This document shows positions 1-9,980 of a stretch of 9,980 bases of DNA, piece after piece. Source of the stretch: an uncultured Lachnospiraceae bacterium (lineage in GTDB: Bacteria; Bacillota_A; Clostridia; Lachnospirales; Lachnospiraceae). The notes beneath the pieces were generated by a model. That model was not told where the DNA came from and ran no database searches. It saw only the letters and a program-made list of their open reading frames with translations. Each line of letters opens with the position of its first letter. Position 1 is the first letter of the stretch. A program made the position numbers and the translations under genes. The DNA lies in NCBI GenBank assembly GCA_947564305.1, contig CANOBT010000186.1, positions 1-9,980 of the forward strand. Reading direction: 5' to 3'.

Positions 1-54
1 ATTACGAGGATCATACGGCAGAATCTGTAAAGAATTGTTAATAAACTGTGATAG

Positions 55-94
55 AGAGCTGTTATTTCAGAGTTGAGATAGCAGCTCTTTTTTT
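55..94 (+). terminator. Rho-independent terminator of an upstream gene
   Basis: An 11-bp stem (55-65 paired with 78-88, one G-U pair) with a 12-base loop is followed directly by a run of seven T (88-94). It would end a plus-strand transcript entering from before the window. Stop codons in all three plus frames lie just before or within it (28-30, 39-41, 74-76), so a gene tail may end here, but too little is present to choose its frame. It also insulates the downstream cluster from read-through. Confidence 0.8.
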
Positions 95-284
95 CGTAGG
101 ATAAATATATTGTTTATAAAAAGATTATAAATTCTTTGGACAATATAAGTTATTGATGTAAAATGGATTTATAAAGAGTATTTCAAGTTTTGGATTTTGA
201 AATAAGCTTCTTAACTTTATGTTTAAACAAGCGAAGATTTTTATGCTAGAGTTGATGTTTGAAAGTTGTGAGATAAAGTTCTAA

Positions 285-567: not shown

Positions 568-1227
568 ATGAACGAAAAGGAGTTACTTAAAAATCTAATT
601 GATAATCCGAAACAGCCCTCTGTGAACGAGTGGGTATACGAGGTTGAAACTTTTTTAGAGGATACAAAAAATGTTTCGGAGGAAGCTAAAGAATTAATAC
701 GAGGAATTAAGCTTCAAGGTGATAATTTTCAGCGTTGTGATAATTTGGTAGCGTTATTGAGACAATTATACAAGAAAAAATATGATAAGATTACCGTACC
801 GCCAATAACAAAGAGAAGTCAAATTTTTGTGGCAATGATGTTTTCAGCAGAAACAGATAGAATTTATGAGAAGGTTTATAGGCCTGTTATTCAATCCATG
901 GACTATGTGGCGTTGAGAATTGATGAAAAACAGTTTAATGGTTCTATTATTAAAGAGATAACTACCGAAATAACAGATTCTATAGCTATGATAGCAGATT
1001 TGACTGGAAATAGAGGCGGGGTCTATTATGAAGCAGGTATAGCGAGAGGGCTGCAATTATGTAATCATCCTATAAAACTGATTTTTACTTGCCGACGTGA
1101 TTTCTTTGACAATGAGAAGGTTCATTTTGATGTAAGCGGAGACAACATATTGTTATATAACGATGATGAAGATTTGAACAACAAACTAAAAATGCGGCTA
1201 CAGGCCGCATTTGCGGATAAAAATTGA
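568..1227 (+). CDS. Nucleoside 2-deoxyribosyltransferase-like / TIR-like domain protein
   Basis: A 219-residue cytosolic protein with no signal peptide or membrane segment. The ATG at 568 was chosen because GGGAGG sits seven bases upstream; an in-frame TTG at 529 has no such site. Residues 1-80 are mostly helical and unrecognised. Residues about 86-197 look like a Rossmann-type domain of the nucleoside 2-deoxyribosyltransferase / TIR-like group: FVAMMFS strand (87-93), RID (117-119), IADLTGN (142-148), YYEAGIARGL (153-162) and a closing DVSGDNILLY strand (188-197). In that fold the glutamate of the YEAG motif (E155) is the expected catalytic or nucleotide-contacting residue. Family members cleave or transfer at N-glycosidic bonds of nucleosides, and relatives occur in antiphage and conflict loci as effectors or nucleotide sensors. 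The substrate cannot be read from the sequence. It is first in a same-strand cluster, 52 bases ahead of an ADP-ribosyltransferase, which suggests a shared role. Confidence 0.75.
   Translation: MNEKELLKNLIDNPKQPSVNEWVYEVETFLEDTKNVSEEAKELIRGIKLQGDNFQRCDNLVALLRQLYKKKYDKITVPPITKRSQIFVAMMFSAETDRIYEKVYRPVIQSMDYVALRIDEKQFNGSIIKEITTEITDSIAMIADLTGNRGGVYYEAGIARGLQLCNHPIKLIFTCRRDFFDNEKVHFDVSGDNILLYNDDEDLNNKLKMRLQAAFADKN
1190..1212. other. Perfect 9-bp hairpin at the 3' end of the first cluster gene
   Basis: AAATGCGGC (1190-1198) and GCCGCATTT (1204-1212) pair perfectly around the five-base loop TACAG, inside the last codons of the gene that ends at 1227. It is GC-rich in AT-rich surroundings. On the minus strand the stem is followed by TTAG-type sequence, so it could be a weak minus-strand terminator. 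On the plus strand it could be an mRNA processing or stability element between the first two genes. Confidence 0.35.
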
Positions 1228-1279
1228 ACATATATGTAATCGTAATTAATAGGTAATATTTATGAGGTGATGGATAAAC

Positions 1280-1912
1280 TTGAACAAATTGCTAGAAGGA
1301 AAATCATACCACGAATTTGATAGTACAGAAGAAGTGGAAATATGGGCTAGGAAACATTATGCCGATTTGTTGAATATCCCCAGAGAAGATGAGCTGCATC
1401 AAATGATTTCCAGCTATACAGGAAGTTACTATAAATGGTATAATAAATTATTGCGAAATTATATATCTGCAAACGGCAATAAGTCTAGAGAAATTGAATC
1501 AGTTGATGTTAAAGATGATGTGATAGAAATCCAGAAAATCACGGACATGCTGTGTAAGCATTCGTTGCCGGAAAATATTATTGCTTATCGATATACACAC
1601 AAAAAGGATATTGTGTCACTTTGTAGTGGAAATGTATTGCGCAATGGCATAGAGTTTTCCGATAAGGCGTTTTTCAGTACAACACTTATCCGCAAGATGT
1701 TAAAGGGATTTATGTGGGAGAACCATTGTGATTGCCTTTTAAAGCTTTATCTTCCCCAAGGGTTGCCAGGCGCATATGTTTCAATAGATAAAGAATGGTC
1801 ACGTTTAGATGAGCAAGAATTTTTATTGCCACCGAACACTAATTTTAGGATTTTAAAAATTCATCATTTTACATATCCACTTAAAATTGAATGCAAGGCA
1901 ATTTATAATTAG
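1280..1912 (+). CDS. Mono-ADP-ribosyltransferase (ADPRT exoenzyme-like fold)
   Basis: A 210-residue protein that I assign to the R-S-E class of ADP-ribosyltransferases, which move ADP-ribose from NAD+ to a target. The three signature elements appear in order and spacing: R104 in IAYRYTH (NAD+ binding), FFSTT at 131-135 (the STS element, here STT), and E178-Q179-E180 followed by FLLPP. An E-x-E pair is typical of arginine-modifying enzymes, with E180 as the catalytic residue. The upstream segment YTGSYYKWYNKLLR (46-59) matches the helical start of this toxin fold. There is no signal peptide, so the enzyme probably acts inside the producing cell rather than as a secreted toxin. The start is a TTG at 1280, chosen because AGGTGAT (1265-1271) lies eight bases upstream; the ATG at 1270 is in another frame and gives only 16 codons. 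No obvious antitoxin or ADP-ribosylglycohydrolase gene is adjacent. The target is unknown. Confidence 0.8.
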   Translation: MNKLLEGKSYHEFDSTEEVEIWARKHYADLLNIPREDELHQMISSYTGSYYKWYNKLLRNYISANGNKSREIESVDVKDDVIEIQKITDMLCKHSLPENIIAYRYTHKKDIVSLCSGNVLRNGIEFSDKAFFSTTLIRKMLKGFMWENHCDCLLKLYLPQGLPGAYVSIDKEWSRLDEQEFLLPPNTNFRILKIHHFTYPLKIECKAIYN

Positions 1913-1976
1913 TTTATTAAATTTGTACAGCATATCATTAAATATTTTTATGTCGAATACTTAAAACGGAGGGGGC

Positions 1977-3218
1977 ATGGAAACGGTAATGTCGTTTTTT
2001 AGCAGTATCATAATAAATATTATTTCTTGCGTTGCATATGATAAAGGACGCCTTTTTATTGCATCAATGGATAAAGGGAAAATTGAAGAAAAAATTTGTG
2101 CATGGACAGAAAAATTTTTTTCTACACATTCTGAAATGGTTTTTGAAACATCGAAATTTATTGATTATGTCACTTATCAAAAACCATTGGAAAAGATATG
2201 TGAATATGTATTTAATGCAAATAAAAATGTAGTAATTAAAGAGCAAGATTTTGTAAAAAGCCTTGTATATGAATATAAAAGAAATATTAATGATGCAGGT
2301 GTAAACTGCTCTATTCTTGAGGAAAGTGCAATAAGAGATCTGTTTTATGGTGTTTTAGTTCTTTGCAAAGAAATATTATCTGAAAAAACTACTAAAGGTG
2401 AAAAATTAATTTTGTATCAAAGCCAGCAAAGCAATGTCAAACTTGATGCAGGGATTAGGGATATTAGTTCCAAAATTGACGAACTTGAGGAAAAACTCAC
2501 ACATCAGGATCAAATAACGGACTCTATAGTTATTGAGGATGTATATAAAATTTTGTCAGGTGCAATATGGGAAGGAAAACTTACAAAGGTATTTAGTTTT
2601 CTTTCGGTGCTTGCAGGAAAGAATGATGACTTGGAAAATGCAGTCAAGATTAAGCTTGCGGTTTTATCTGACTATAATGTTTTAACAGGAGAGCCGCTGA
2701 TTTTATGTGGGAATATTAAAAATGTAGTTTTAAGAGATGATGTGTTTCGCCTGTTGATTCTCCATAATTTTTTTAAGCCAGATAAATTGAATCCTTATCT
2801 GGAATTAATATCAGATCCGACTTTGAAAAAAATTGCTATATCTGTTGCTACAGGCCATTTGGAGGATGTGATTACTGAATCAAAGACGAGGCAAAATAAT
2901 GTTACTAGTTATAACTGTGAAATTGTTGCTGGATTGGAAACAGAAGAATGGCTTACTAAGCGTCTTTGTGTTTTAAAATTGAATATACTGCCCATATGTA
3001 ACCTTTCAAAAACGATTGCAGAATTGGTTCAACAACCTAATTTTGTTGATCAACTTTACATATGGGAACATTACCTTAACGAAGTGATTGCTTTTGATAG
3101 TGATAAAAAGTGTGTAAATTCTGATATATTCTGCAAATATTTTGATGAGATGAAGGAAAGCATCAATATTTTTAATCATGCGCAAATAGATTTACAAAAG
3201 CGTTTTATGTATCCTTGA
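1977..3218 (+). CDS. Helical protein with coiled coil, N-terminal part of a putative TPR-GreAB-C-PIN conflict system
   Basis: A 413-residue, almost wholly helical protein with no recognised enzymatic motif. Residues 5-20 form a short hydrophobic helix (FFSSIIINIISCVAY) like the start of the helical N-terminal domains seen in STAND/NACHT-type and TPR conflict proteins; it is too short and irregular to call a membrane anchor. Residues about 155-180 have a heptad-like charged pattern (DISSKIDELEEKL) suggesting a coiled coil. Residues 185-413 look like HEAT/TPR-type helix pairs. GGAGGGGG (1968-1975) precedes the ATG at 1977 at short spacing; the next ATG (1989) would be too far away. The stop overlaps the start of the next gene by four bases, and the next protein begins in the middle of a similar helical array. 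The two may therefore form one complex, or may derive from a single protein of about 1,200 residues. Likely role: sensor or scaffold half of an immunity module. Function is inferred from context only. Confidence 0.6.
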   Translation: METVMSFFSSIIINIISCVAYDKGRLFIASMDKGKIEEKICAWTEKFFSTHSEMVFETSKFIDYVTYQKPLEKICEYVFNANKNVVIKEQDFVKSLVYEYKRNINDAGVNCSILEESAIRDLFYGVLVLCKEILSEKTTKGEKLILYQSQQSNVKLDAGIRDISSKIDELEEKLTHQDQITDSIVIEDVYKILSGAIWEGKLTKVFSFLSVLAGKNDDLENAVKIKLAVLSDYNVLTGEPLILCGNIKNVVLRDDVFRLLILHNFFKPDKLNPYLELISDPTLKKIAISVATGHLEDVITESKTRQNNVTSYNCEIVAGLETEEWLTKRLCVLKLNILPICNLSKTIAELVQQPNFVDQLYIWEHYLNEVIAFDSDKKCVNSDIFCKYFDEMKESINIFNHAQIDLQKRFMYP

Positions 3219-5569
3219 TAAAAGGAATGTTATTGGCAGAGGATGCAGGTATAAATAATATATTGGATTCCATTCCAAATAAAATTGCTGAACTTCCGGA
3301 AATCGAAGCATATAAATTTATTCGGGAGATAAAAGAAGGGAGGGCCAATCAAGACAGCGTAATTAGATTTGTTCTCCGCACAGGGCAATATTGGGTTTTG
3401 ATTAATTACTGCGCAAGTCTTAAAGATGATCAGAAAGCTTTAGATGTAATTAATCAGGTAAAATGGTTATTGGATCAGAGTTTTGAAATATTTGAATATA
3501 CAGTTATTGCTACCAAATGTGTTTTGGAAAATCAGGATGCACTGAAGCTGTTGAAAGAACATGAAAAGACTTATTCTGATTATATTGAATTTTGGGTTAG
3601 AGCATACCAAATGTCTGAAACGGATGATGAGCATCAATGGGCGGTAAATTCGGCCATTGCTAAAATGAGGGATGATGAATGTAAATCAGTAGGTATTTAC
3701 GGAAGAAAATCATTGGTGGATATTTTGATTAAGGAAAAGAAATATACGGAAGCAATAAGTATAATAGCAGGTCTTGAACAAATAGTTGCAGATAATTTGG
3801 ACATGACTTATAGGAAGATCGAAGTCTATATGAATAGCGGACATCAGATAGAAGCTCTTACTGAAATAAATGGACATTATGATGATCTGAAAAATGATGT
3901 ACGGATTATGGACTTGCTGCTTTCCGTTTCTTTAAATTATAAACGCGCTGTTGATGACAAGATACTTGCTCATGCAAAAGAGTTTAATAACGTAAGGGTT
4001 TTGATGTTGGCGGCTGAGACAGAGTATATTAAGGGAAATTTCAATGAGGCGAGAAAACTGGCGATGCAGTCAATGCTCATATCGACAGTGGATAATGAAG
4101 AACTTTTTGATGTTGCGAGCAAGTTTTTTCTTGGAGATGATTCCGAGAGTAACAGCACGCTCAGCCGCGTAAAGGAGAATACTTTTTTTGTTGCTAATAA
4201 TCAGCAGGATCATACAAGACAGACATTTTGCATTTATAAGGAAAAAATATTACCAGAGGTAGAATATCGGTGGAAGGATGCGTGGCACATACATATTGAC
4301 GACGCTATTAATATGAATTATATGCGTCTTTCTATTGGAGATGTGATTGATTTTAAGGGTAGTTTGTATAAATTGGTTCGTATTGGCTCTATAGAGGCAT
4401 TTTACTTTCATGTTTGTCTGGAAAGTATGATCAGGCGAAACCGGGCATGGGCTATTACTGGAAAAAATGCTGAAGAGATGCTGCAAGGAATTATTGAGAC
4501 CTACAGAGAGCATCCCGGCTGGAATGACAAGGATTGGGAACAAGCATATATGGATTTTTCTCAATCTCCGTTGACTGTTTTTGCGCTGAAGTCGTTTGTG
4601 AATCTGGAATACGGGCAGTTAATGCGGGTTATAATGGATGATTCTTCTGTGATAGTCAGAGAATATATATTACCAGCAAAAAAATATGATGGTAGAGAAT
4701 ATGTGGTAACCTATACAGCATTAGTGGAGATGTACAAATTGGGAATTGATTCCAAAGAATTATGCCGTGATTCTATAATGGTTCCGTATTCCGCAGTGGT
4801 GGAAGCTGAACGGGAGGCAGATGCTATATATAAGAGCAATAACAGGGAAATTGTAGCTTCGTTAGCTGTTCGGGATGAGAAAGTGCAATTTTTTGAGTCG
4901 GGAGAAGATGTTAAGCGGGAAAATATCCGTCAGGCTATTGGATTTAGAAAGTTCATATCAGGTTTTTCAATTATCGAAAATATGCATGATATAATAATTC
5001 AGGAGTTGCAAAGCAAGGATATCATGGAGATTATTGGAATCAGCGATTATGATGCGCTTGCACTTGCACATACAAGAGGGGCTGTTTTAATAACTGGAGA
5101 AATGCTGGTGGCAGGTTTGACAAAGTTAGAGGCAGCAAAAGCAGATGCTGCTGGCATAGCAGATTTCCTATGTTTACTTGGGATACCTATTATGAGATTG
5201 TTTGATATAATAAATCGGATGATGCAATACAGGTTTTATGCCGCAATTACTCCAACAGTGGCATTGCATGTCAGGGATCAATATGATATTGCCAATGTGG
5301 CAGAAAGGGGGAAAATTGCTGAAGCATGGAATGATATTTTGCAAATTGTGAAAAATCTTGAGGATGAGAATTATCGAGAAAAATTTAAAGAAGCTTGTCT
5401 TGAGACTATGCGTTTGCTGGGAGAAGACAATGTGGATTTAAGGCATCCTATTTTGCAGGCATTTTATTGGGCATCGTTTTATTATAACGATTTAAGGATA
5501 AATTATTATATAGAGGAAGGTGCACTATATTATAATGTTGTTCGGATAGATAGAGAAACCGAAAGTTGA
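3215..5569 (+). CDS. TPR / GreAB-C-like / PIN-domain protein of a predicted conflict system
   Basis: A 784-residue protein with three regions. Residues about 10-310 are TPR-like helix pairs (for example YTEAISIIAGLEQI at 177-190 and NFNEARKLAMQSML at 275-288). Residues about 335-410 form a compact beta-rich unit (IGDVIDFKGSLYKLVRI, then EAFYFHVCLESMI) that resembles a GreA/GreB C-terminal-like domain. Residues about 490-660 look PIN-like: a VVTYTALVEMYKLGI strand-helix (497-511), VPYSAVVE ending in E530, YDALALAHTRGAVLIT with D613, then GE with E629. PIN domains are metal-dependent ribonucleases, but the usual first aspartate aligns with T499 here, so activity is uncertain. This order matches the predicted TPR-GreAB-C-PIN conflict systems. 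The TTG at 3215 overlaps the previous stop and has no clear ribosome binding site; an in-frame ATG at 3227 is an alternative. Translation is either coupled to the gene upstream or this is the back half of a gene split by a frameshift. Confidence 0.65.
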   Translation: MIKGMLLAEDAGINNILDSIPNKIAELPEIEAYKFIREIKEGRANQDSVIRFVLRTGQYWVLINYCASLKDDQKALDVINQVKWLLDQSFEIFEYTVIATKCVLENQDALKLLKEHEKTYSDYIEFWVRAYQMSETDDEHQWAVNSAIAKMRDDECKSVGIYGRKSLVDILIKEKKYTEAISIIAGLEQIVADNLDMTYRKIEVYMNSGHQIEALTEINGHYDDLKNDVRIMDLLLSVSLNYKRAVDDKILAHAKEFNNVRVLMLAAETEYIKGNFNEARKLAMQSMLISTVDNEELFDVASKFFLGDDSESNSTLSRVKENTFFVANNQQDHTRQTFCIYKEKILPEVEYRWKDAWHIHIDDAINMNYMRLSIGDVIDFKGSLYKLVRIGSIEAFYFHVCLESMIRRNRAWAITGKNAEEMLQGIIETYREHPGWNDKDWEQAYMDFSQSPLTVFALKSFVNLEYGQLMRVIMDDSSVIVREYILPAKKYDGREYVVTYTALVEMYKLGIDSKELCRDSIMVPYSAVVEAEREADAIYKSNNREIVASLAVRDEKVQFFESGEDVKRENIRQAIGFRKFISGFSIIENMHDIIIQELQSKDIMEIIGISDYDALALAHTRGAVLITGEMLVAGLTKLEAAKADAAGIADFLCLLGIPIMRLFDIINRMMQYRFYAAITPTVALHVRDQYDIANVAERGKIAEAWNDILQIVKNLEDENYREKFKEACLETMRLLGEDNVDLRHPILQAFYWASFYYNDLRINYYIEEGALYYNVVRIDRETES

Positions 5570-5591
5570 GAAAACAAATTATTTAAAGAAA

Positions 5592-5801
5592 ATGGATAAA
5601 GCAACATTGCTGGAATAATTGCGAATTCTGCTTGTAGAATCTGTGAGAAGAATTTATGGAGGACATGATATGCTCAGAACGGATAGGTAGAAAATGTTGG
5701 TTGATTCGGGAGAAATTTCGGGGTATAATAATAGCGAGGTCATGAGCCTTCTGTGTATGCCCCATGTATTTCGAACAGATGCAGAAGGAGGAAACCAATG
5801 A
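5592..5801 (+). pseudogene. Possible degraded small gene upstream of the nuclease gene
   Basis: One frame from ATG 5592 to TGA 5799-5801 reads as protein-like sequence (starting MDKATLLE, later SGEISGYNNSEVM) broken by only two stops, TAA at 5616 and TAG near 5688. Its final stop overlaps the ATG of the nuclease gene at 5798 in an ATGA arrangement typical of translationally coupled genes. An intact 35-codon piece remains from ATG 5694. This could be a decayed small partner gene of about 70 codons. The alternative is chance, because the stretch is short and also contains a near-perfect promoter. I do not recognise the peptide. Confidence 0.3.
5701..5729 (+). promoter_or_regulatory. Near-consensus sigma-A promoter for the PD-(D/E)XK nuclease gene
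   Basis: TTGATT (5701-5706) and a perfect TATAAT (5724-5729) are separated by exactly 17 bases. The predicted transcript start near 5736 leaves a leader of about 60 bases before the ribosome binding site and ATG at 5798. This suggests that the nuclease gene is transcribed independently of the four-gene cluster before it. Confidence 0.6.
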
Positions 5802-6748
5802 ACGTAGAAATCAATAATGCAATAAATGCAGCGGATACTGAAGCGCAATATGATGAAAAGGCCAAGCGTCTGTTAAGCAACAAGATTATACTGGCACATA
5901 TTTTAGTAAAGGCTGTGGATGAGTTTCAGGGAATGACACCCGAGGCCGTTGCGCCTTATATTGAGGGAGACCCGCTTATTAGCGTGGTTCCAGTGGAGCC
6001 GGGGCTGACAAATGCGGTAGCAAAGCCTGTTGCTGATAGTCTGAAAACAGGACAGCGTATTATTGGGCTGAACACGGAAAATGTAGAGGTAAATGAAGGG
6101 CTTGTCCGGTTTGATATTATCTTTTATGTACGAATGAAAGACGGTATTTCACAGGTTATTGTCAATCTGGAGGCACAAAAAGATGAGCCAACAAGCTATC
6201 ACGTTTTGAACCGGGCAGTGTTTTATGTAAGTCGTCTTATTTCTTCACAGAAAGAACGGGATTTTGTTAAAACGAACTATAATGACATCAGGCGTGTATT
6301 TTCCATATGGGTTTGTATGAATATGACTGAGAACAGTATGGCGTATGTTCATTTGTCAAAAGATGACCTGATTGGGGCTTATCCTTGGAAAGGCGGGCTT
6401 GACCTGCTGAATATTGTTATGATAGGCATAGCAGACGAACTTCCTGAACATGATGAAAAATATGAACTGCATCGTCTGCTGAGTGCATTGCTGTCGATGG
6501 AATTATCTACTGATGAAAAGTTAGGAATTATTAAAAATGAGTATAGAATTCCGGTAGATGATAAATTGAGAAAGGATGTGAGTGCCATGTGTAATTTGTC
6601 GCAGGGAATTAAAGATGCTGAAAATGCAAAAATAATCATGAATATGCACAAGAAAGGCTATACGCCGGAACAAATAGCAGAAATTGTAGAGAAAACCATT
6701 GACGAAGTTGAGGGCGTAATAAGGAAAAAAGAGCCCGTTTTGGTGTAA
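5798..6748 (+). CDS. PD-(D/E)XK nuclease family transposase (Rpn/PDDEXK_2-like)
   Basis: A 316-residue protein of the PD-(D/E)XK nuclease family transposase group, which is very common and multi-copy in Lachnospiraceae. It begins with the typical helical lead-in (YDEKAKRLLSNKIILAHILV, 18-37). The nuclease core follows: D106 in VRFDIIFYVR, then a strand ending in NLEAQKDE with E125. The position after E-x is Q127, as is usual for this branch, rather than lysine. The conserved H-V-L-N-R-A-V-F-Y segment is at 135-143. The tail (IIMNMHKKGYTPEQIAEIV, 279-297) is the short helix-turn segment typical of Rpn-like proteins. AAGGAGG (5785-5791) lies six bases before the chosen ATG; the longer open frame from 5753 has no such site. 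Relatives promote RecA-independent DNA recombination, and many are annotated as transposases although they carry no terminal inverted repeats. It has its own promoter, so a functional link to the upstream cluster is not shown. Confidence 0.8.
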   Translation: MNVEINNAINAADTEAQYDEKAKRLLSNKIILAHILVKAVDEFQGMTPEAVAPYIEGDPLISVVPVEPGLTNAVAKPVADSLKTGQRIIGLNTENVEVNEGLVRFDIIFYVRMKDGISQVIVNLEAQKDEPTSYHVLNRAVFYVSRLISSQKERDFVKTNYNDIRRVFSIWVCMNMTENSMAYVHLSKDDLIGAYPWKGGLDLLNIVMIGIADELPEHDEKYELHRLLSALLSMELSTDEKLGIIKNEYRIPVDDKLRKDVSAMCNLSQGIKDAENAKIIMNMHKKGYTPEQIAEIVEKTIDEVEGVIRKKEPVLV

Positions 6749-7495: not shown

Positions 7496-8560
7496 GTGCC
7501 GGAAAACGTAGGACAGAGGACAAGGCATGTTCCCTTAGTGCTGGTGGACACGGAAAACCTGTCCCGGGAGGAATGGCTTGCCTGCCGCCGCCAGGGGATC
7601 GGAGGCAGCGACGTGGCGGGCATCATGGGGATATCCCCCTTCCGGACGGCCCGCGATGTTTATTATGACAAACTGAATATTGCACCTGTGGAAGAAGAGC
7701 CGGAAAACTGGGTGGCCCTGGAGGTGGGGAACCTGTTAGAGAACCTGGTGGCAAGGATCTTCCACAAAAAGAGCGGCCTGGAGATCTTCCAGGTCAAAAA
7801 GATGTTCCGGCATCCCATGTATCCCTTCATGCTGGCGGATGTTGACTACTTTGTCCGGCTGCCGGACGGGGAAACGGCCATTTTGGAGATCAAGACCACC
7901 AATTACAACGCCACGGATGCGTGGTGGCAGGACGGCAGGGAGATTGTGCCGCCGTACTATGAGGCGCAGGGGCGCCACTATATGGCGGTGATGGATGCGG
8001 ACAGGGTGTTTTTCTGCTGTCTGTACGGCAACACGGAGGATGAGGTCATCATCCGGGAGATCAGGAGGGACATGGCATATGAACAGGAAATGATCTACCT
8101 GGAACAGTACTTCTGGGAGAGCCATGTGCTGGCAAAAGATCCCCCGCCCTATACGGAGGACGGCGCACGGATCCTGGGGAGCGTACAGCGGTACTGCGGC
8201 CCGGCGGATACAGGTGCGCCCGTGCTGGAGCTTGGCGCGGACATGACGGAAACGCTGATGTATTACCTGCGGCTCCAGGAGGAAAAGAAAAAAGCGGAGA
8301 AAAGATCCGGGGAACTGGAAAAGGAGCTGCAGCGGGCAAAGGCCATCCTGATCGCGGAGATGGGAACCAGCTGCACTGCCCAATGCCGCAGGGACGGTTT
8401 TCACTATACCGTGACCTATAATCCGGTGCGGAAGGCAGGGGTGGACAAGAACAACCTTTCACGGCTGAAGCTCCAGTACCCGGAGATCTACGAGCGGTTC
8501 GTGACCGTGTCGGAGTACAGGAGATTCCTGGTAAAAGTCAGCGCAGAAGAGGCTGCCTGA
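7496..8560 (+). CDS. YqaJ-type (lambda exonuclease-like) viral recombinase family protein
   Basis: A 354-residue protein of the YqaJ / lambda-exonuclease family, PD-(D/E)XK enzymes that resect double-stranded DNA ends to leave single strands for annealing-type recombination. The family entry motif is at 26-49 (EEWLACRRQGIGGSDVAGIM, then GISPF). Catalytic elements are E82 in GNLLENLVAR, the acidic LADVDYF segment with D115 or D117, E131-x-K133 in ILEIKTT, and the Q-x-x-x-Y helix at Q158-Y162. Residues about 258-285 are a charged coiled coil, and the C-terminal portion (YTVTYNPVRKAGVD and PEIYERFVTVSEYRRF) is the usual tail of Clostridia members. The GTG at 7496 was chosen because it has AAGGGGGG eight bases upstream and lies before the conserved entry motif; the next methionine is at residue 44, inside that motif. 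It precedes a RecD-like helicase gene by 57 bases, so both probably serve replication-coupled recombination of a mobile element. Confidence 0.88.
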   Translation: MPENVGQRTRHVPLVLVDTENLSREEWLACRRQGIGGSDVAGIMGISPFRTARDVYYDKLNIAPVEEEPENWVALEVGNLLENLVARIFHKKSGLEIFQVKKMFRHPMYPFMLADVDYFVRLPDGETAILEIKTTNYNATDAWWQDGREIVPPYYEAQGRHYMAVMDADRVFFCCLYGNTEDEVIIREIRRDMAYEQEMIYLEQYFWESHVLAKDPPPYTEDGARILGSVQRYCGPADTGAPVLELGADMTETLMYYLRLQEEKKKAEKRSGELEKELQRAKAILIAEMGTSCTAQCRRDGFHYTVTYNPVRKAGVDKNNLSRLKLQYPEIYERFVTVSEYRRFLVKVSAEEAA

Positions 8561-8617: not shown

Positions 8618-9980
8618 ATGAGTATTGTAGGAACTTATGACAGCACGGTTTACAGCAATCCGGCAACCAAGTACTGTGTGATCCGTGTCAGGACGGCAGA
8701 CCGGGGCATCCCGGAAGGTGCCCGTGATAAAAGGAGGTACAGCGACCACCTGATCCGGTTTACTGCGGTGGGTTACGACCTGCCCTGCACCGATGCGGTG
8801 GAGCTGGAGTTTGACGGTGAATGGACGGACGGAAAGTATGGGCTGCAGCTGCAGGTCGTACAGTGGCAGACGGTCGTTCCCAGGACGGAGGAAGGCGTAA
8901 AAGGCTACCTTGGCTCAGGGCTCATAAAGGGCATCGGGGAAAAGACGGCGGCGGAGATCGTGGCCCGTTTCGGGGTGAATGCCCTGGACATCCTTGAGAA
9001 ACAGCCGGAGCGGCTGCTGGAGGTCAGGGGCATCACGGAAAACAGGCTGGAGGACATTAAGGCCTCCTATGCGGAAAGCCGTGCCCTGCGGGACATCATG
9101 ACGCTGCTGGCGCCGTTTAAGCTGACACCGTCAGCGGCACAGAGGATCTACCAGCAGCTGGGTCCTGCCAGCGTGAAGATCCTGAGAGAGAATCCTTATG
9201 AGCTCTGCCGGATCTCAGGGTTTGGTTTCTTAAGGGTGGACGCCATCGTGCAGCACACGGACAGGCGCCTGAACACCCCCATGCGGATCAGGGGGGCGCT
9301 GTACTATGCGCTTGACAAGGCGCGGGCGGAAAAAGGGCACCTGTTCCTGCCCAGGGACACCCTGGTATGTGAGGCGCTGAAACTGTTAAACAAAAGGATA
9401 CCTGTCCCTGCACAGAGGGTACAGAAAGCAGAGGTGGAGGATGTCCTGGAGGGTGTCATCCTGGGCGGCAGCGTGGTATCCATGAAGGACAGCATCTATT
9501 CCGTAAGCCAGTTTACCATGGAGGACGAGACGGCCAGGCAGATCGCCCTGCGGCTTTTGGCAGCGCCGGTACAGGAGGACATTACCCTGCAGCTGGCGGA
9601 GGCCAGGGAAAAACTGGGGCTCAGCCTGTCGGAAAAACAGGAAAGCGCGGTTCGCACGGCATTCCTGCACAGCCTTTCCATCATCACCGGCCCTCCCGGC
9701 ACAGGAAAGACCACGGTGCTTAAGGGCATCCTGGAGGTCTATAGGCTCCTGCACCCGGACGGGAAGATCGCGCTCATGGCGCCCACCGGACGGGCCAGCC
9801 GCCGCATGGCGGAGAGCACCGGATTTGACGGGGCCTGCACCATGCACAGCGGGCTCGGGCTCCTGGGCGGCGAGGATGAAAGCGGGAGCCTGATGAAAGA
9901 AAGGTTCCTGGATGCGGACCTTGTCATTGCCGATGAGTTCAGCATGGTTGACATGTGGCTTGCCAGGCAGTTCTTTACCC
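8618..9980 (+). CDS. RecD2-like SF1 DNA helicase (partial, runs off the window)
   Basis: The first 454 codons of an ATP-dependent RecD-like helicase, continuing past the window end. Residues 1-95 resemble the N-terminal OB-like domain of RecD2. Residues about 100-215 carry helix-hairpin-helix DNA-binding repeats (SGLIKGIGEKTAAEIVARFG, LLEVRGITENRLEDI, then LCRISGFGFLRVDAIV). The helicase core then begins: Walker A TGPPGTGKTT at 357-366 with K364, motif Ia APTGRASRRMAES, and Walker B IADEFSMVD with D439 and E440 (relatives often have DEASM, here DEFSM). RecD2 proteins are usually about 700-850 residues, so roughly half is visible. They unwind DNA 5' to 3' without RecBC. GAGAGG lies four bases before the ATG at 8618. 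Together with the YqaJ nuclease upstream it suggests a self-contained recombination/repair module of an integrative element, plasmid or phage. Confidence 0.88.
   Translation, partial: MSIVGTYDSTVYSNPATKYCVIRVRTADRGIPEGARDKRRYSDHLIRFTAVGYDLPCTDAVELEFDGEWTDGKYGLQLQVVQWQTVVPRTEEGVKGYLGSGLIKGIGEKTAAEIVARFGVNALDILEKQPERLLEVRGITENRLEDIKASYAESRALRDIMTLLAPFKLTPSAAQRIYQQLGPASVKILRENPYELCRISGFGFLRVDAIVQHTDRRLNTPMRIRGALYYALDKARAEKGHLFLPRDTLVCEALKLLNKRIPVPAQRVQKAEVEDVLEGVILGGSVVSMKDSIYSVSQFTMEDETARQIALRLLAAPVQEDITLQLAEAREKLGLSLSEKQESAVRTAFLHSLSIITGPPGTGKTTVLKGILEVYRLLHPDGKIALMAPTGRASRRMAESTGFDGACTMHSGLGLLGGEDESGSLMKERFLDADLVIADEFSMVDMWLARQFFT

Follow-up and report, generated by a model that had tools for sequence, protein, structure and literature searches.

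What do four closely spaced genes on a contig from an uncultured Lachnospiraceae bacterium encode, and which of them belong together? The stretch analyzed, here called the window, comprises 9,980 nucleotides (GenBank assembly GCA_947564305.1, contig CANOBT010000186.1). The original prediction, made from the sequence alone, described a four-gene candidate immunity module combining three activities: a nucleoside deoxyribosyltransferase (NDT)/TIR-like enzyme, an ADP-ribosyltransferase (ART) and TPR-GreAB-C-PIN proteins. The open reading frames (ORFs) were found where it had placed them:

568..1227, plus strand: gene 1, 219 aa, N-terminal helices followed by an NDT/TIR-like domain of Rossmann type with a GGVYYEAG motif
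1280..1912, plus strand: gene 2, a predicted ADP-ribosyltransferase of 210 aa, a single catalytic domain with R104, S133-T134 and E178-Q-E180
1977..3218, plus strand: gene 3, 413 codons, N-terminal part of a TPR-GreA/B-C-PIN protein (the core), ended early by a frameshift
3215..5569, plus strand: gene 4, the C-terminal 784 codons of the core protein that it shares with gene 3

The module did not survive in that form, since genes 3 and 4 read as one broken gene and gene 1 is absent from its matching place in a second genome. What the two genomes share is the ART and, directly behind it, the core.

Genes 1 and 2 are 52 bp apart, genes 2 and 3 are 64 bp apart, and between genes 3 and 4 there is a 4-nt overlap. 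When gene 4 was used as the query of a protein search, with scoring limited to the 7,992 candidates that had most words in common with it, at least 22 homologues were obtained; 18 of those listed are 1,081-1,221 aa long. The best of them, P0006, has 1,197 aa, the sum of 413 and 784; its sequence agrees without a difference with the first 410 of the 413 gene 3 residues and with all 784 of gene 4. Among the 22 homologues listed, 21 read across the split without a change of frame; the one exception, P0009, begins downstream of it. A single core ORF was likewise found at seven of seven reference-genome loci (L001-L007). Because P0006, the 21 homologues and the seven loci all keep one frame, genes 3 and 4 are, by comparison with their relatives, one gene that carries a one-base frameshift near 3,200-3,218 in the window copy; the 4-nt overlap exists because one ORF is frameshifted. 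The split falls within a predicted helix (residues 404-420, P0006 numbering). Four separate genes were thereby ruled out, and programmed frameshifting was ruled out because the intact relatives use one frame. The predicted row of same-strand genes with short gaps thus stands, but not their count: a long gene with a frameshift had been taken for a new two-gene module, which is an annotation trap. A second close relative is broken as well (P0026 plus P0009, 88% identical, longest contig 5,066 nt each). The breaks in the two copies are either sequence errors or real inactivations. That of P0009/P0026 lies at another place, around residues 588-602, which could reflect recurrent breakage or recurrent assembly error.

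The domains of the core were assigned as follows:

1977..2381, plus strand: N-terminal helical domain (P0006 1-135), in which no enzyme domain was recognized
2523..4129, plus strand: TPR-like alpha-solenoid (P0006 183-718), with helix 404-420 cut by the frameshift
4154..4390, plus strand: GreA/B-C-like domain (P0006 727-805)
4688..5188, plus strand: PIN-like domain (P0006 905-1071), non-acidic at the first catalytic Asp position

TPR-GreA/B-C-PIN proteins were introduced as a predicted conflict system by Kaur et al. (2021, eLife; PMC8195603; Pfam PF20698). The assignment of the core to this family was borne out. PF20698 stayed below its cut-off in the gene 4 piece (21.9 against 27.8 bits), was above it in the L001 core (29.5 bits) and matched all 18 aligned core homologues at E ≤ 1 (alignment A1, 18 of the 22 listed). 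The GreA/B-C domain sits between TPR and PIN, and the PF20698 PIN domain is C-terminal. TPR_19 was matched at E ≤ 1 in seven of the 18 members and lay below cut-off in P0006. A fold search had been proposed with the original prediction as a check; for the core it gave matches to GreA/Gfh1, a PIN protein and TPR proteins, whereas for gene 1 it was uninformative. On profiles and modeled folds together, the intact core protein has the predicted TPR-GreA/B-C-PIN architecture.

The N-terminus of P0006 is helical in the predicted structure and had no Pfam match. A profile of this region was found in four of 299 Lachnospiraceae genomes, always inside a core ORF. Sequences from three of these genomes were themselves rows of the profile, so this is thin evidence that the helical domain is constant. 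In the PIN-like domain the first Asp position was found to be Thr in 21 of 23 sequences and non-acidic in all 23, with the register inferred from the sequence and from the range and active-site numbers of 1v8p. The second acid is represented by E943, which is Glu in 17 of 23 sequences, or by E/D947, present in 23 of 23, and none of the 23 lacks D1024, D1026, E1042 or D1063. When 179 genomes were searched for canonical PF20698 members with which to compare active sites, only the genome of L001 and one sub-cut-off match in a control genome came up.

Gene 2 begins at TTG, and its homologue P0028 starts at the same residue. It matched Pfam ADPrib_exo_Tox at 6.8e-18 (65.1 bits, cut-off 23.4), and the best match of the ART profile was the catalytic domain of Vip2-type enzymes (1qs2, 1.5e-20). 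R104, S133-T134, E178 and E180 were invariant in 29 of 29 aligned sequences (alignment A2, the window and 28 of the 50 ART hits). Judged by these motifs gene 2 is an R-S-E ADP-ribosyltransferase with an intact motif set, as had been claimed. It is probably cytosolic, and no export or cell-entry partner was seen in the window.

The evidence for what stays together comes from L001, a Lachnospiraceae metagenome-assembled genome with two blocks collinear with the window. The first joins window 78-183 to L001 8-112 (73%, E 9e-11) and the second joins window 1259-6070 to L001 192-4999 (77% identity, about 4.8 kb). L001 thereby retains the 5' flank with a promoter-like site, the ART, the core and the start of gene 5. 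Between the flank and the ART, L001 has 79 nt whereas the window has 1,075 nt including gene 1. Gene 1 is absent from its matching place in L001, whose contig starts 7 nt before the flank, so that a copy farther upstream is possible. Between the two genomes, the ratio of non-synonymous to synonymous substitution rates (dN/dS) was 0.137 over the 210 codons of the ART; in the core it was 0.161 over 407 codons of the N part and 0.163 over the 784 codons of the C part. These values are rough, with dS at 0.9-1.35. The observation that a single-domain ART lies beside a TPR-GreAB-C-PIN protein therefore holds in a second genome as well, against a mobile-element-like background.

We put the probability at roughly one half that the ART and the core form a lineage-specific, mobile-element-borne two-gene system in which the enzyme is encoded separately. 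The unit would be a small ART followed, 64 bp downstream, by one TPR-GreA/B-C-PIN protein of about 1,200 aa. The large protein would serve as sensor and scaffold, with the ART as an effector that has a gene of its own. The GreA/B-C domain would dock on RNA polymerase, and the solenoid and the N-terminal helical domain would hold or release the ART. Upon infection, the ART would modify a target, protein or RNA, and growth would stop. Gene 1, placed behind the shared 5' flank and ahead of the ART, would be an extra NDT/TIR-like gene that is not required. The TPR-GreA/B-C-PIN family is itself a prediction; a separate, recognizable ART gene would let scaffold and enzyme be produced, deleted or disabled singly to test it.

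How often the two genes meet bears directly on this reading, whose odds were set mainly by L001 and by the count that follows. An ART adjoins the core at two of 12 core loci (the window, L001-L007 and L028-L031; L006 and L030 have less than 1 kb upstream of the core). Conserved co-location, the check that accompanied the original prediction, gave a divided answer: ART and core are together in L001, but gene 1 is missing from its place there, and at the more distant cores no ART lies alongside. A sample of 397 Lachnospiraceae genomes contained five with a clear core; eight matched at E ≤ 1e-3, and three of these, whose matches cover no more than a short TPR stretch (E 4e-4 to 9e-4), were excluded from the count. 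The ART was found in five of the 397, one at 69% and four at 27-37% identity, and gene 1 in one at E ≤ 1e-20. In the genus of L002, one of 58 genomes carried a core, L002 itself, and in the genus of L001, gene 1 was found in three of 60 genomes at E ≤ 1e-3 (35-41% identical). The protein collection held 525 relatives of gene 1, 50 of the ART and at least 22 of the core. In that collection the longest contigs of ART P0036 and core P0008 are equal in length (49,434 nt each), and so are those of ART P0032 and the core halves P0009/P0026 (5,066 nt each), which indirectly suggests two further ART-core linkages. Agreement of this sort also occurs between the ART list and the gene 1 list for short lengths, e.g., 1,465 and 1,212 nt.

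Several results weigh against a two-gene system. The two ART-adjacent loci belong to close relatives, and a recent chance linkage is possible; four of the five ART-positive genomes had no core match. The core of the window copy is broken, and the PIN active site is non-canonical. All of the Foldseek top 50 for the core were solenoid proteins, and it took a second look to bring up the rows for GreA and PIN. None of the PADLOC models matched the intact cores P0006, P0007, P0011, P0018, P0023 and L005 at E ≤ 0.1; a TPR model matched the L004 core at 0.038, and NERD+UvrD was matched weakly (0.001) by the piece that gene 3 encodes, taken by itself. Finally, the published expectation is one of proteins acting alone with few conserved neighbors (Kaur et al., as far as the passages on the family go; PMC8195603).

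This last point leads to the main rival, which we consider clearly less probable than the two-gene system but still a serious contender: the core would act alone, as the family was published, and the ART would be an unrelated neighbor, a single-gene toxin or defense enzyme linked to it by chance in one lineage of a mobile element. According to the passages of Kaur et al. on the family, its genes are mostly standalone with few conserved neighbors, and the proteins are expected to act on RNA polymerase and cut transcripts (PMC8195603). No ART was found at 10 of the 12 core loci, and distant ART relatives occur elsewhere, e.g., in L035, where one overlaps an MmeI-type restriction gene. A core acting alone fits less well with the 64-bp spacing, the collinearity and the low dN/dS of both genes at about 77% nucleotide identity; in addition, no N-terminal enzyme domain was recognized in the clade and the PIN acids are incomplete.

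We consider it improbable that the two genes are a toxin-antitoxin-like pair, with the large protein neutralizing the ART by a logic like that of CmdTAC. The two-gene layout is tight, and the partner proteins of CmdTAC hold its ART toxin (PMC11618068, abstract). In the window, though, the core is broken and the ART frame is intact, and P0009/P0026 is broken too, with an ART whose longest contig is likewise 5,066 nt long. The pair is disfavored as toxin and antitoxin because a required antitoxin should not be the first to go, unless the breaks are sequence errors. An antitoxin of 1,200 aa would also be unusual.

A long shot of similar standing is a host-encoded immune device that ADP-ribosylates RNA polymerase or the nascent transcript. 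Here the GreA/B-C domain would dock at the secondary channel of polymerases on phage DNA, the degenerate PIN domain would only bind RNA, and the ART would be the enzyme. Phage T4 ARTs modify the host polymerase, and ADP-ribosylation of RNA polymerase by such a device would be the mirror image.

Where gene 1 belongs depends in part on what it is. Gene 1 itself had no Pfam match at E ≤ 1. The homologous domain of a relative in L037 reaches the cut-off of PF05014 (28.8 of 28.8 bits), PADLOC matched gene 1 to a TIR effector at 2e-5, and E155 is invariant in 20 close sequences (alignment A4, 20 of the 120 gene 1 proteins listed from 525 hits). The structure model is weak (mean predicted local distance difference test, pLDDT, 69.7), and in fold comparison TIR tied with receiver domains and other Rossmann-like folds. 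The NDT/TIR-like label of the original prediction may be kept, mainly by transitive homology. As an obligatory part gene 1 was ruled out by L001, one locus; it would be a separable accessory or an independent gene, optional cargo that is probably co-transcribed with the ART and the core.

The remaining rival, a single multi-effector immunity module of all the genes in which an NDT/TIR-like, an ART and a PIN activity are combined, is the least probable of all. A common strand, the 52- and 64-bp gaps, a promoter-like site upstream of all the genes and the equal lengths of the longest contigs of the close gene 1 relative P0084 and the close ART relative P0028 (119,314 nt each) speak for it. Against it, the 79 nt of L001 take the place of the gene 1 segment while 5' flank and ART-core pair are both retained, the gene 1 family is larger than that of the ART (525 vs. 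50), and relatives of the gene 1 domain are found with different partners, in L037 for example with a KAP NTPase.

Compared with known systems, the two-gene reading is closest to the family of Kaur et al. Shared are a TPR-type solenoid, a GreA/B-C and a PIN-like domain in that order in one protein, rarity in the genomes sampled, and distant relatives near other defense genes. In the published family the N-terminus carries a fused effector, either EAD10 or one of 13 swapped domains; several of the 13 are named in the main text, where ARTs come up only in other connections (PMC8195603). Here, in contrast, the N-terminus is helical without a recognized enzyme, and the ART is a separate upstream gene. 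The first PIN acid is missing here, by the inferred register, in all 23 sequences compared. CmdTAC shares the phage-defense logic of an ART effector with partner proteins; it differs in having three genes, including an antitoxin and a chaperone, and its abstract has no GreA/B-C or PIN scaffold (PMC11618068). The PIN-nuclease defense systems DS-3 and DS-5 have a PIN domain, which they need for phage defense, and no classical antitoxin, but their PIN catalytic residues were shown to be needed, and the passages that describe them mention neither ART nor GreA/B-C (PMC13092281). Single-domain R-S-E ARTs of the Vip2/C2/C3 type share the catalytic domain and the motif set, whereas here one 210-aa domain lies beside an intracellular-type scaffold. 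A literature search gave no recognized description of the ART-core pair and no experimental test of the TPR-GreA/B-C-PIN family, a weak negative since the spelling GreA/B-C is not searchable; the passages retrieved from a BREX survey do not name the family (PMC12839542).

Distant cores were found in neighborhoods that fit a defense role without proving it. The L005 core directly follows BREX genes (Pfam PglZ and BrxL), that of L030 directly precedes ORFs that are putatively type I restriction-modification genes, and in L007 the distance between the core and such ORFs is about 5 kb.

Two further features of the window lie behind the pair, in a probable mobile element:

7496..8560, plus strand: YqaJ-type exonuclease, flanking and outside the pair
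8618..9980, plus strand: RecD2-type helicase, running off the window

The GC content is 30-40% in the module and 55-58% in the YqaJ/RecD2 recombination block behind it. It climbs from about 39% to 55% between 6500 and 7500, which marks the boundary of cargo and block. Putative integrase ORFs, judged from their N-termini, were found near the block in three of five loci (L051, L054 and L055), and none were noticed in L052 and L053 on a reading of the ORFs without a family scan. Because of the GC contrast and the putative integrases by the block in three of five loci, the ART-core pair is probably low-GC cargo of an integrative element.

The core had no match in PLSDB or INPHARED, and in IMG/VR none of 14 pattern-matching stretches encoded a core relative, nor did the one such stretch for gene 1 encode a relative of it; these searches ruled out a wide spread of the core on plasmids or phages. 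Gene 1 weakly matched six plasmid and three phage records, all below 60% identity, one of them annotated as a nucleoside 2-deoxyribosyltransferase. The ART matched one plasmid record at 30% and a PHROG of phage ART proteins at 2.5e-10.

Three other loci deserve mention. In L002 a 259-aa gene (9101-9880) precedes a core of 44% identity by 83 bp, at the place that the ART has in the window and L001, and could possibly be a swapped separate effector. By eye it looked DUF2971-like, but a link to DUF2971 or to the ART found no support in Pfam or pairwise tests, and it gave weak PHROG and PADLOC matches only. In L035 the distant ART (3115-3810) overlaps the end of the MmeI-type restriction-modification gene. 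At 7078-10147 in L037, a KAP-type NTPase, an NDT/TIR-like protein and a 272-aa protein of no assigned kind stand in a row by an integrase-like ORF, which looks like another small defense cassette.

The remaining features of the window border the pair:

53..100, plus strand: terminator-like hairpin with a T run (17-pair stem 53-90 and tail), a consensus match only, which would close an upstream unit
78..183, plus strand: 5' conserved block (L001 8-112), marking the module start
137..164, plus strand: promoter-like site TGGACA-16-TAAAAT inside the conserved block
5798..6748, plus strand: gene 5, a 316-aa PD-(D/E)XK protein, PDDEXK_2-like with a sub-cut-off match

No Rfam family was found in the window at gathering cut-offs. 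The promoter-like site scores 10 of 12, which eight other sites equal, and promoter-like sites are no commoner in the window than by chance (35 found, 31.1 ± 5.3 expected from shuffles). Gene 5 is kept behind the core in L001, with 82% identity over the 91 residues present there, and could either belong to the unit or be common cargo of the mobile element.

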